NCBI GenBank assembly: GCA_947650365.1
Contig: OX393555.1
Location: 15,278,251 to 15,342,250 of the forward strand
Reading direction: 5' to 3'
Length of the DNA: 64,000 nt
DNA from: Chamaelirium japonicum
Taxonomy: Eukaryota; Streptophyta; Magnoliopsida; Liliales; Melanthiaceae
Numbering within the stretch: the stretch's first letter is position 1; every line of letters begins with the position of its first letter. The notes beneath the pieces are model-generated. The model did no database searches. It saw nothing but the letters and a program-made list of their open reading frames with translations, and was not told where the DNA came from. The position numbers and the translations under genes were made by a program. Positions 6,201 to 12,200 of the stretch are shown here, one piece after another.

Positions 6201-9200
6201 GCTTCTTATGCACATGCGCCTAGGCGGCTTGTGCCTTAATCTTCGAGAGCGCCTTGTCGCCTAGGCGCGCGCCTTAACGGCACTGATTGTTTCACAGGGA
6301 AGATGAAGTGGTTTGAAAAATGTAGGGGAGGAAAGAATGGAAGGAGAATGATGCATGGGTCGAGAGGGGGGGAGACGAAGGGTCATATATATATATATAT
6401 ATATATATATATATATATATATATATATATATATATATATATATATATATATATATATATATATATATATATGGGCATGCTATAATGCAGCATGCGGTAC
6501 GTGCGGCACTGCATCGCAGCCGTCTGATTCACGCGCTGCGTGCATCGCATGCACGCAGCAGTGCATCAGACGGCTGCGATGCGGTGCCGCACTTACCGCA
6601 TGCCGCATTATAGCATTTCTCTCTCTCTCTCTCTCTCTCTATATATATATATATATATATATAACTTTGTATGCCTATTTAAAGAAGACTTCAATGTATA
6701 CTCCTCTATTAACATACGTAGAGGTTTCTGAATTTGCTAATTTTGTGTGGATGTGATATCTATGTTAAGATGATCATCCTCACAAAAAATCAGCAAGTTC
6801 TGAAATCTCTAAGCATTTCAAATAAGCTTATCAAATTAACGGTTGAAATGGACAGACGATACAACTTCTATCATTTTGATACACCTAGATGTTTCATAAT
6901 TTGTTGTTTTTTTGTGAGGATGATCATATTCCTATAGATAGCATATCCACCAAAAATCAACAAATTCTGAAATATCTAGGTCCATCAAAATGTTAGAAGC
7001 TTTGTCAGCCGTTCATTTCAACCGTTAATTTGAAGAGTCTATTTGAAATGCTTAGAGTTTCAGAACTTGCTGATTGTTTGTGAGTATGATCATCTTAATA
7101 TAGATATCACATCCACAAAAAATTAGCAAATTCGGAAACCTCTATGTATGTTAATAGAGGAGCATACATTGAAGCCTTCTTTGCATGGGCATACAAAGTC
7201 ATGCTCCTCTCTCTCTCTCTCTCTCTCTCTCTATATATATATATATATATATATATATATATATATATATATATATATATATATATAACCCTTTTTTTTT
7301 ACCCATATTTGACCCATCATCGTAATCGTTGGATTCGAGATTCAGCATGTACTGATTTTTTGTAGAGGTGATATCTATGGTATGTTGATCATCCTCACAA
7401 AAATCAGCACATTCTAAAACCTCTAGGTGTATCAAATGTGCTCTTCAAATCAACGGTAGAAATTGACGGTTAAAAAAGCTTATAACATTTGATGGCCCTA
7501 GAGGTTTTACAATGTGTTGATTTTTTGTAAGGATGATCAACACGGTTAGCACCTCTACAAAAAAATCAGCACATTCTGAAACTCGAATCCAACAATTAGG
7601 ATGATGAGTCAAAATTTCATGGTCATCCGATCCTGACCCATATATATATATATATATATATATATATATATATATATATATATATATATATATATATATA
7701 TATATATATGGGGAGGGATACAGGATACTCTTACTCATGAGCTCTTACTAATGATCCCAGCCATCCATTGCGATCATGATGGCTGGGATCAATTCCCACT
7801 CTCTCTCTCCATCTCTCTCTCTCTCGATCAAACAACCCCCACCCCCCCCGACCCCCCATCCCCACCGACTCCGGCAGCCCCTTCCGGCGACCCCACTGAC
7901 TCCGGCAGCCCCTTCCGGCGACCCCCCCGACTCCGGCAGCCCCTTCCGTCGGCCCACCTGCCCGCGCCCCCCGCTGGCCCGCCTGCCTGCGCCCCCCGCC
8001 AGCTCCGCGCCTGCCCGTGCCCCCCGCGCCTGCCCGCGCCCCCCGCCGGCTCCGCGCTCCCCGACGGCCTATGCTATCAAAGTCGGGACTAGTCGGCGAC
8101 TAGTCCCCGACTAGTCCCTGGGCGGCATTTTGCCGACCGATTAATTTCGATTCCGTCATTGCTGGGCAGAATCCCGACTAGTCCCCGACTAGCCCGACTA
8201 GTCTCCGACTAACGACTGCCGACTAGTCCCCAGGCAGCATTCTGCAAGCATTTTTTTTTTTGAAAGGAGTCTTTGCAAGCAATTTTGTTTAGATTTTTTT
8301 ACATTGGCTCAAAGTCTTGAGTCGCAAGACTCACAACTATGGCTCTTCCCTGTAATCATCTGTTGAGCACCTGAGAATCTCAGATAAAAAATAGACAAAT
8401 AATTAGTTTATTTGTTGATATCCATATAACCCTATAATCAAAATTGGGGTTGTTCACTGATTAAACATCATCAAACAAATATTATGATGAATTCTGAGTT
8501 CTGAGTCTTTTGACATGGGCATGAAGCTAATACATCTGTGTTCTGTTAGACTGTTACTTATGTATTTATACTCATGCTGTGAAGTGTGAAGGTATGTATT
8601 GTTATTAACCAACTAATATCGTATACTTATTGACATTTATGTTAGTTCATATATCAATATATGTTTAGGGAGGAGGGGAGGGGTTAGAATAAGTTTTGGC
8701 CGACTAGTCCCGAATTAGTCCCGACTAGTCCTAGTCGGCCCTTGGCCGACTAGGGCCGACTACCGACTTTGACTGCATAGCCGACGGCCCGCCTGCCAGC
8801 GCCCCCCGCCGGCTCCGCGCCCGGCGCCGGTGTCGCCGGAGGGGAAGGTGGTCGGGGTCGGGGCTGCGAGGGGGATCGCCGGAGCCGGAGGGGGAGGGGA
8901 TGGGGTCGGTGTCGGGGTCGGTGGGGATGGGGGCTGGGTTTAGGTGTGAGAGAGAGAGAAAGAGATAGAGAAAGGAGGGTTGATCTCAGCCCTCGATCAA
9001 ATTTGATCGGACGGCCCGGATCATTAGTAATCCTCACTTGTAAGAGGCTATGAGTAAGAGTATCCCTCCCCTATCTATCTATATATATATATATATATAT
9101 ATATATATATATATATATATATATATATATATATATATATATATATATATATATATATATATATATATATATATATATATATATATATATAGGGTAGGGA

Positions 9201-12200
9201 TCCAGAAACATGCTTCTTTGCCACAAAGTTAGACACGCAACTCCAAAACCCTAGATAGAGGTTTCAAAATTTGTTGATTTTTTGTGAGGGTGATAGCCTT
9301 GCCTTAGATAGCACATCAGCAAAAAATCAACGCATTCTAAAACCTATACCCTAATCAAATATTCCCTTCAATTTAACGGTTAAAATGAACGGTCGATAAA
9401 GCTTTTTAGATTTGATACACCTAAAGGGTTTAGAATGTGCAGATTTTTTATGGATGTGCTATCTAAGGGAAGTTAATCATCCTTACAAAAAATCAAAACA
9501 TTTTGAAAGCTCTAACAATTTGGATGATGTGTGTCTAACTTTGTGGCAAGGTTGCGTGTTTTTGGATCCCGACCTATATATATATATATATAAAGAGAGA
9601 GAGAGAGAGAGAGAGAGAGAGGGAGGGAGGAATGTTACAGTGAGCTGTGAGCTATAGAAGGAGAAAATGAGCTGCGATCATTTTGATCACCTTAGAAGTT
9701 TTGGAATTTCGTGAAAATTGGTGGGTGTGTTGTTTAGGGTAACATGATCATCCTCACCAATTTTTAAGGAATTTCAAAACTTCTAAGGTCATCAAACGGT
9801 AGAAGCTTTATCTACCGTCCGCAGTAATCGTTAATTTTGCTTCTACCATTTGATGACCCTAGTAGTTTTGGAATTCCTTGAAAATTGGTGAGGATGATCA
9901 TGTTACCCTAGACAACACACTCACCAATTTTCACAAAATTCCAAAACTTCTAGGGTGGTCAAAATGATCGTAGCTCATTTTCTCCTTCCATAGCTCATAG
10001 CTCACTGTAATATATATATATATATATATATATATATATATATATATATATATATATATATATATATATATATATATATATATATATATATATATAGGGG
10101 GCGGGGAGCCTGCACCCGAGGTGCAGCAACGACGCTGCACCTCTCGCTTGTTTACCTACCTAGAAGTTTTGGAATTTGATGAAATTTGGTGAGGGTGTTG
10201 TCTAGGGTAAGATGATCATACTCACCAATTTTCATCAAATTCCAAAACTTCTAGGGGGGTCAAATGGTCGAAGCAAAATCTGCAGATTTTAACGGTGACT
10301 GCGGACGACTGATTTTGCTTCGACCATTTGACCCTCCTAGAAGTTTTGGAATTTGATGAAAATTGGTGAGGATGATCATCTTACCCTAAACAACACCCTC
10401 ACCAAATTTCATCAAATTCCAAAACTTTTAGGATGGTAAAACAATGCCTGAGGTGCAGCAACGACGCAGTGATTGTGGGCATCGAATTAGCCCACGGGTC
10501 GAACCCGGCCCGCGAGTCGAACCCGACCCACACATGCGAACTAGGCCCGCACACAACGACCCACATGCGAACACGGCCAGCACACAACGGCCCGCATGCA
10601 AACTCGGCCCGCATGCGAATGGACTTGACTCAACGCAAACGGGCCCCACCGGACCCGCAACTCGAACACGAAAAGTGGCCCACCGGCCCCCCTTCTTGAA
10701 AACCGTGCCCCCTCCCCATGGGGAGGTGTGGCCGGTCATGAGGGGAAGAAAAGAAAAAAAGAAAAAGAAAAAGAAAATAAAAATCATAACCGTCTCGATG
10801 CGGGGGGAGGTGGCGTGGACGTCTACACGACCGTAGATTCGCGACGATCCCTCGATCCGACGGACAAGATGACGTCGTGTCGCCATGCAATCGGTAGGTG
10901 CAAAGATGACAACGTATCTTCAAAGATCAAGTCACATCTTGCCCATAACCATCCCCACAAAAAAGGAAGGGATCAAGGTTGTTCCCCCCAAATAAGGGAA
11001 CAATATCTTGATGGTTATGGGGGGACATATTGGATACAACCAAAAGATTGCAGCCATATCTCTCCCAACCTCCCCCCTTTGCCTATAAATAGAAGAGGTG
11101 GGGGAAGGCATCAAGAGTCGAAAGCTGAAGACGAAACGGCTTTGCAAAATGGAGCTCCAACGCTTGAAGACCGAAGGCTTCACGAGGCACGGCAAGCGCG
11201 TCCTACGGGAACACTTAGCCCATCAAGTCCTCATCAACGTGAAGACCTTGCACTTGAAGATCAAGCGTCAACTCCTCGCACGAAGAAGGAAGCTCGGAGA
11301 AGGAGACCCGGAGTCATTGTCACCCCGACTTCTCCAACGATCTTCATAAACTCCGAAGACACCATAAGCAAAGGCCGGAGAAAAAGATCGAAGTCGACAA
11401 CACCCGTCGTCTTCAACAAAGGCGTCGACTCCTCTCACGAAGAAGAAGGCTTGGAGAAGAAGGCCCGAAGCCGGTGCTACCCTCGCCGTTTTCATCAACA
11501 AAAACCGACGCTACAACCGTCGCACGAAGACTGGTGCTACCCCCGTCGTCTTCATCAACAAAAGTCGACGCTACAACCGTCGCACGGAGACTAGTGCTAC
11601 CCCCGCCGTCTTCATCAACAAAAGCCGACGCTACAACCGTCGCAACGAGATCGGTGCTACCCCCGTCGTCTTCAAAAGAAGCCTTCGACTCCGATCACGC
11701 CAAAGAAACTCGAAGAATGAGAGAAGCCAAACCGACGCCACAACCGTCGAGAAGCCGAAAGAATAAAGAAGCTTTGAAGTAGTCATCGTCGTTCGAGGTC
11801 AAGATCGAGTCAACGCCGAAGCAAAAGCCAACGTAAGAAGCCAAAGCAAAAGCACCGGTAAAGCCCGCGCCAAAGCAACGCAAGTACCAAAGCCAAGTAA
11901 CTACGCCGGTCACGAGCAAAGCACCGCACGTTCTAGCCGATACGGCGCGAAGTCCGGAAGAACTAAAGCATCGCAAGCCTCCACCCATCTACGTTCAAGC
12001 GCGAGCGCCAAAGCAAAGCAAAAGCCAGAGCCACACCAAAGTAAAGCCAAAGCCAAAACCGACGCCAAAAGCACGATCGACGTCGCGAACTGACGATCAA
12101 GGACGCCAAGGTCTAGCAAGGATCGAGGGAGACACGAAGACCGAGGAACGAAGCCAAAAACCTCCTAGCCGAGAAAGCGCGAAGCACGGAAGGGACAAAA

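Follow-up and report, generated by a model that had tools for sequence, protein, structure and literature searches.

How do palindromic elements with different ends come to be stacked side by side in the microsatellites of one plant locus, and what do they have in common? The question arises from 64,000 nucleotides of Chamaelirium japonicum contig OX393555.1 (this whole stretch is called the window), in which an earlier note had described foldback elements living inside (TA)n and (CT)n tracts. Here, we have found thirteen such elements in three arrays, joined via (TA)n, and show that seven of them have a palindromic core in common while their outer ends diverge. The arrays probably consist of non-autonomous Mutator-like miniature inverted-repeat transposable elements (MITEs) of the SaTar/MuTAnT/mMITE kind, which would be moved in trans into (TA)n. 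That they derive from Mutator-like elements (MULEs) is suggested by the close match in architecture with published elements.

Array A (6385-10480) holds seven elements (E1-E7) in the order (TA)44-E1-(TC)11(TA)12-E2-(CT)13(TA)28-E3-(TA)35-E4-(TATC, TA)n-E5-(TA)9(AG)14-E6-(TA)n-E7, which bears out the claim of at least six elements stacked at 6385..10444. Array B (21064-23423) holds five (B1-B5) and array C (35369-36296) a single one (C1), both beyond the coordinates of the earlier note. Each of the thirteen elements has a TA tract, defined as five or more repeats, to its left, its right or both, adjoining it immediately or via GA/CT, and 15 of the 17 TA tracts adjoin an element in the same manner; the other two lie at 14680-14764 and 24577-24603. 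The elements had been said to be bounded by microsatellites, which is true of E1-E6, with short-unit repeats on both sides, but not of E7, with (TA)n on its left only and no TA on its right. The single core copy that stands outside TA, at 12456-12634, is a fragment. In arrays A and B, no such element lies inside another of the same kind. The tract at 14680-14764, (AT)42 with no foldback beside it, lies just past the first of two inverted copies of about 2 kb and is a possible empty landing site.

Six of the seven elements in array A are foldbacks over almost their full length, as had been supposed for each of them; the exception is E4, with its GC-rich interior and with terminal inverted repeats (TIRs) shorter than those of the foldbacks. 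The folding energies of the six lie 18.6 to 34.9 standard deviations below those of mononucleotide shuffles (20 per element; E4, being too long, was skipped). Small size and TIRs are both present, with the qualifications that the TIRs of E4 and C1 are shorter, that the right end of E7 is uncertain and that B5 is a fragment. For a placement test, we started from 24 inverted repeats that do not overlap (score at least 60, span below 2.5 kb) and used the 12 that are self-palindromes with a length of at least 120 bp, leaving out eight shorter palindromes and four two-arm pairs, one of which is the TA-bounded C1. Of the 12, ten have a TA tract no more than 60 bp away. Random placement (20,000 trials) yields 0.38 on average and never more than 5, under a model that treats clustered elements as independent and so overstates their independence. 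Chance adjacency of palindromes and TA is rejected by this test.

The palindromic core is found in E2, E3, E5, E6, E7, B1 and B3, and is lacking in E1/B2, B4 and E4/C1. A common core had been noted before for several types in array A, of which 'type 8' could not be matched to an element. Each core unit consists of a TAGAGGTTTYAGAATTTGCTGATTTTTTGTG-like arm, a centre (GATGATCATC in many units) and the inverted arm; two units surround a spacer, often with AACGGTT or its complement, and E2 and B1 have three. To compare cores with outer ends (42-66 bp), we scored 80 between-family pairs, which are not independent of one another, against mononucleotide shuffles. The cores exceeded the 99% shuffle level in 73 pairs and fell short of it in 7, with a mean score of 51.7 against 15.2 when shuffled, whereas the outer ends exceeded it in three pairs (0.8 expected) and had a mean score of 11.75 against 11.24. 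The three pairs are the right ends of E3 and E5, and the left end of B3 with either end of E6. Within families, all 11 pairs were above the level for both core and ends. When the halves of the elements are aligned, between-family identity is 0.29-0.44 over the outer 75 columns, rises to 0.47-0.72 over columns 75-194 and drops again to about 0.4 in the spacer (columns 195-224). The contrast between conserved core and divergent ends is real.

The core arms of some elements resemble one another more than they resemble those of other elements. Mean arm identity within an element is 0.92 in E7, 0.88 in B3 and 0.85 in E6; it is 0.84 between E6 and E7, and 0.59-0.71 when E6 or E7 is compared with E2, E3, E5, B1 or B3. 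Each of the four arms in E6, and likewise in E7, carries AAATTGGTG or AATTTGGTG, as against 0 of 24 in E2, E3, E5, B1 and B3, and both arms of the fragment at 12456-12634 read AAATTTGTG, which is intermediate. The arms of E2, B1, E3 and E5 have no within-element excess (0.70-0.76). Such concertedness could result from homogenisation within the foldback or from selection for one binding motif. Among viral contigs, a 21-base pattern of the core had 0 matches.

That the ends are unrelated, as had been proposed, holds for most pairs in the test above, but some sharing is apparent. Of the 312 pairs that were scored among 26 ends (46-50 nt), nine that join different families surpass the 99% level of the shuffles. 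The strongest match is that of the left end of B5 with the two ends of B4 (scores 28 and 23; the maximum of 6,240 shuffles is 22), and the others are E6-B4 (four pairs, 18 to 24), B3-B4 (19), E4-E5 (18) and E6-B3 (18). The B5 match to the B4 end extends over 23 of 28 bases, two of them within a GA tract, and runs a few bases into the part that resembles the second half of B2; the right end of B5 matches E1/B2. In addition, E6, which has the core, contains GGAGAAAATGAGCTGC; B4, which lacks the core, has the same stretch but for one mismatch, and B3 has 11 bases of it in common with E6. The motif GGGNNGGGATM has five copies on both strands of the 64 kb, all at element ends (7710 and 9071 in E4, 9192 in E5, 35460 and 36214 in C1); it was picked after the ends had been inspected, four of its five copies come from one family, and without its last letter it has nine copies, four of them away from ends. 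GGGG/CCCC ends are found in E4 and C1, and GGGG or GGG at one end of E1/B2 and E5; the left end of E7 starts with GGGGG, and the left end of E5 and the right end of E3 with GGGT. It is conceivable, though we consider it unlikely, that the (TA)n arrays serve as an exchange site at which conserved-core families repeatedly swap their outer 42-66 bp with other families by recombination at or near TA, with the core arms changing in concert. B5 and the shared GGAGAAAATGAGCTGC (E6/B4, partly B3) would then be instances of end exchange.

Several families recur across the arrays. B2 is 94.5% identical to E1 over 145 columns and B1 is 90.5% identical to E2 over 546 columns, both in reverse orientation, while C1 matches E4 at 75.9% over 228 columns in its best piece; the divergences across arrays are thus 5.5%, 9.5% and about 24%, respectively. 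Within array A, E6 and E7 are 80.1% identical over 291 columns. Coordinates are collected in the table.

Table. Elements of the three arrays and associated features (window positions).
Feature	Positions	Strand	Core arms	Description
(TA)44	6385..6472			left edge of array A
E1	6473..6617	+	none	foldback, 145 bp; followed by (TC)11(TA)12
E2	6664..7206	+	six, in three palindromic units	foldback, 543 bp; left end without GAGCATG; followed by (CT)13(TA)28
E3	7288..7639	+	four, in two units	foldback, 352 bp; right end read inward GGGTCAGGATC
E4	7710..9071	+	none	ends GGGGAGGGATAC; interior GC-rich; carries nested hAT-like insertion
hAT-like insertion in E4	8069..8780	+		TIR CTATGCWRTCAAAGTCGG; 8-bp target duplication CCGACGGC at 8061-8068 and 8781-8788
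E5	9192..9574	+	four	foldback, 383 bp; ends GGGTAGGGATCC / GGTCGGGATCC
E6	9622..10009	+	four	foldback, 388 bp; core variant AAATTGGTG; foldback arms 175 nt, complementary at 92%
E7	10097..10480	+	four	foldback; core variant AAATTGGTG/AATTTGGTG; left end within (TA)n; right boundary approximate
E7-type core fragment	12456..12634		two	outside TA; 94.7% identity to 10210-10379, inverted
B1	21158..21709	-	six, in three units	E2 relative, 552 bp; ends GAGCATGAC / GTCATGCTC
B2	21845..21990	-	none	E1 relative; end CCCC, then (TA)39
B3	22114..22493	+	four	foldback; (GA)n left, (TC)n right
B4	22578..23251	+	none	near-perfect foldback (self-match 93.7%)
B5	23299..23391	+		chimera: B4-like end left, remainder like second half of B2/E1
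C1	35460..36214	+	none	E4 relative; ends GGGGAGGGATA; (TA)n directly on both sides

In nine cases, a GA/CT run separates an element from its TA tract, to the right of E1, E2 and B3 and to the left of E6, B1, B2, B3, B4 and B5. Without exception, the left-hand runs are GA and the right-hand runs CT; one further run, at 21064-21089, adjoins no recognised element. The pineapple elements have the same polarity and a consensus that starts with GA and ends with TC, and slippage after insertion was inferred for them (PMC8449440). On account of the polarity, we reject (CT)n/(GA)n as a second type of target; these tracts are better read as having grown from the GA...TC at the termini of the element itself.

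Arrays of this kind are not new. Non-nested arrays linked by (TA)n have been published for guayule, rice, sorghum, citrus and pineapple, and elements in (TA)n for Medicago and carrot. The (TA)n site preference is already known, and the conserved interior with different ends is the less usual part of our observations. Literature searches touching on common interiors or the exchange of TIRs led to the MuTAnT paper and to a set of others, in which none of the matches listed deals with either, judging by title or start of abstract; this is not proof of absence. Greater diversity than that of Micron had been suggested for this locus, but 15 families have been reported for the SaTars of guayule (PMC5907723) and 15 for the MiMs of carrot (PMC8227079).

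Among the known systems, the SaTars of guayule, rice, sorghum and citrus also comprise several MULE-derived families, arranged in non-nested arrays via (TA)n or other microsatellites, with sizes of 233 to 1900 bp across species and no element interrupting another; they differ in that a common core with unrelated ends is undescribed in the available part of that report, and they are likened here by description, not by sequence (PMC5907723). MuTAnT of Medicago, too, has (TA)n flanks and a variable loss of terminal bases, and the window elements are reminiscent of its foldback of four similar segments and its GGGG/CCCC distal bases (PMC4486113). Here, the latter two features are mostly on different elements: four arms in E3, E5, E6, E7 and B3, and GGGG ends in E4, C1 and one end of B2. 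MuTAnT is, moreover, one family with two subfamilies, with 90% of copies at 200-300 bp, and both 9-nt duplications and an autonomous partner of the Jittery-like kind have been demonstrated for it (PMC4486113), but not for the window elements. Ac-mMITE-1 and Ac-mMITE-2 of pineapple have GA/TC termini with (GA)n 5' and (TC)n 3', (TA)n targeting and non-nested clusters as found here (PMC8449440). Ac-mMITE-1, of 510-570 bp with TIRs of 140-180, is matched in length by E2 and B1 and in TIR length by E2 with its 145-nt arms; B1 also matches it in termini, with its GAGC/GCTC ends, and the left end of E2 lacks the GA (PMC8449440). What the two Ac-mMITE families have in common is the distal TIR, and hence their ends (PMC8449440); in several window families, it is the interior instead. 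Micron of rice and the carrot MiMs are also MITEs in (TA)n, again likened by description and not by sequence (PMC8227079, PMC12550479), and the SaTar authors count Micron as a non-autonomous MULE (PMC5907723). The earlier picture of a microsatellite-targeting, Micron-like transposition system agrees with the SaTar/MuTAnT/mMITE systems, but a single transposase for all families would be a conjecture, as E1/B2, B4 and E4/C1 lack the core.

As for how the arrays could have been built, our own evidence is the anatomy of the elements, their stacking, the TA association, the shared core and the variable ends, and a Mutator origin, duplications of 9-10 bp and insertion into existing TA are carried over from papers on other species. 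We infer that a MULE elsewhere in the genome would supply transposase in trans, by which the foldbacks could be cut and pasted into (TA)n. From the papers, a target duplication of 9-10 bp is expected, and it would be indistinguishable from the TA repeat. Each insertion would divide a TA tract, and both parts may grow by slippage and serve as new targets, so that different families could accumulate side by side without nesting. The terminal GA...TC may grow as well, giving (GA)n to the left of the element and (CT)n to the right. Probably, the core arms are repeats bound by the transposase in a subterminal position, which would account for why they are kept while the outer 42-66 bp diverge or, as we also infer, are exchanged. 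Consistent with a duplication of odd length, e.g. 9 bp, the flank parity is odd in three of the four elements that TA adjoins immediately at either end (E3, E4, E5 and C1), a weak indication as the left end of E3 is degraded.

Several observations weigh against assigning the arrays to Mutator-like MITEs. The flank parity of E5 is that of an even-length duplication. No MULE transposase domain was found in the 30 open reading frames scanned with Pfam, out of 175 of 75 aa or more from which low-complexity ones had been left out beforehand. Within the window, there is no intact copy with a 9- or 10-bp duplication in complex sequence, and the sole core copy outside TA, at 12456-12634, is truncated. 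Familiar transposon families conserve their ends, and a conserved core with divergent ends is not predicted by this standard picture. Finally, the likeness to the published (TA)n-targeted families is one of architecture, not of sequence.

A different account of the TA tracts, which we regard as possible but rather doubtful, is that they postdate insertion: a short TA-containing target was duplicated and then expanded, and the microsatellite was not the address. The targets of maize TAFT have been summarised as TA runs of 6-8 bp that grow to as much as (TA)50 (PMC5907723), and in Medicago the empty sites average nine TA repeats as compared with 15 per flank in the occupied sites of ecotypes (PMC4486113). 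Such expansion accounts for the length of the tracts only, as the stacking of families requires that later insertions chose existing TA, and, as regards the element that founded an array, it can hold together with transposition into (TA)n. Less probable still, in our judgement, is that the arrays grew mainly by homologous recombination via TA tracts, e.g. through circular intermediates with microsatellite filler, with modules of one or two elements moving and ends being exchanged likewise. Circular intermediates were proposed by the SaTar authors, who termed them speculative (PMC5907723), and the chimera B5 adjoins B4. Furthermore, in the reverse complement of array B, B2-(CT)(TA)-B1 is collinear with E1-(TC)(TA)-E2, with the elements oriented alike, and the two pairs do not differ significantly in divergence (8/145 vs 52/546, p = 0.14). 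However, by a reasoned estimate, a collinear pair is expected by chance at about 0.1 (4 of 10 slot pairs are adjacent in array B, and about 1/4 of arrangements match), and the E1-E2 pair is too weak a lead for composite movement. No identical clusters were seen in pineapple (PMC8449440), and the published empty sites in Medicago (PMC4486113) and indica rice (PMC5907723) are consistent with insertion, an argument qualified by the SaTar authors' remark that insertions and deletions in rice are not clearly separable (PMC5907723).

It is very improbable that the elements belong to a superfamily with a TA-rich duplication that was then expanded, even though GGG...CCC ends in several families and the TA flanks would fit. 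The duplication is TA for Stowaway (Tc1/mariner) and TWA for Tourist (PIF), and pure (TA)n contains neither TAA nor TTA; membership in either group is rejected by argument from these general features. Foldbacks with GGGG/CCCC ends and (TA)n flanks in Medicago were, moreover, classed as MULEs (PMC4486113). An artefact, in which fragile palindromes and TA runs became adjacent by accident of repeats or assembly, is next to negligible. Long TA runs and palindromes are generally difficult to assemble, but the families recur in separate arrays with the ordinary divergences given above, and 10 of 12 palindromes are near TA where random placement gives 0.38.

Insertion of Mutator-like MITEs into (TA)n, the reading we prefer, would add new families to the microsatellite-targeted MULE MITEs, with a conserved interior and different, perhaps exchangeable, ends. 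If true genome-wide, this combination would provide a test of whether the arms or the ends are recognised, and of whether arrays generate new families by recombination. It is also relevant to how such elements find their way to (TA)n.

The core fragment at 12456-12634 is cut symmetrically, at the GATGATCATC region of either side, and it adjoins one of two inverted copies in a hAT region (12627-14622 and 16667-18674; 93% identity over about 2 kb). DUF659 and hAT dimerisation domain matches lie in 15044-17421, partly inside the second copy. The hAT-like insertion in E4 is rich in ACTAGTC/GACTAGT repeats. As would suit a plant genome, Pfam matches among the scanned open reading frames are parts of hAT transposases and of Copia-type retrotransposons, indole-3-glycerol phosphate synthase, a glycosyl hydrolase of family 28 and a weak Rubisco-LSMT; the frame with the weak Rubisco-LSMT match had none among solved structures. 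Four frames near array A (45-410, 2143-2781, 3459-3773 and 10629-11591) had none in Pfam, and the proposed intronic position of the array gains no support from them. A repeat unit of roughly 300-350 bp containing (CT)n is present in tandem at 36297-37583, and inverted relatives of it lie near 45.7-46.1 kb (45711-46085). The exons of indole-3-glycerol phosphate synthase lie at 49088-51404 and include a partial duplication (51132-51261 and 51274-51404, 80%).

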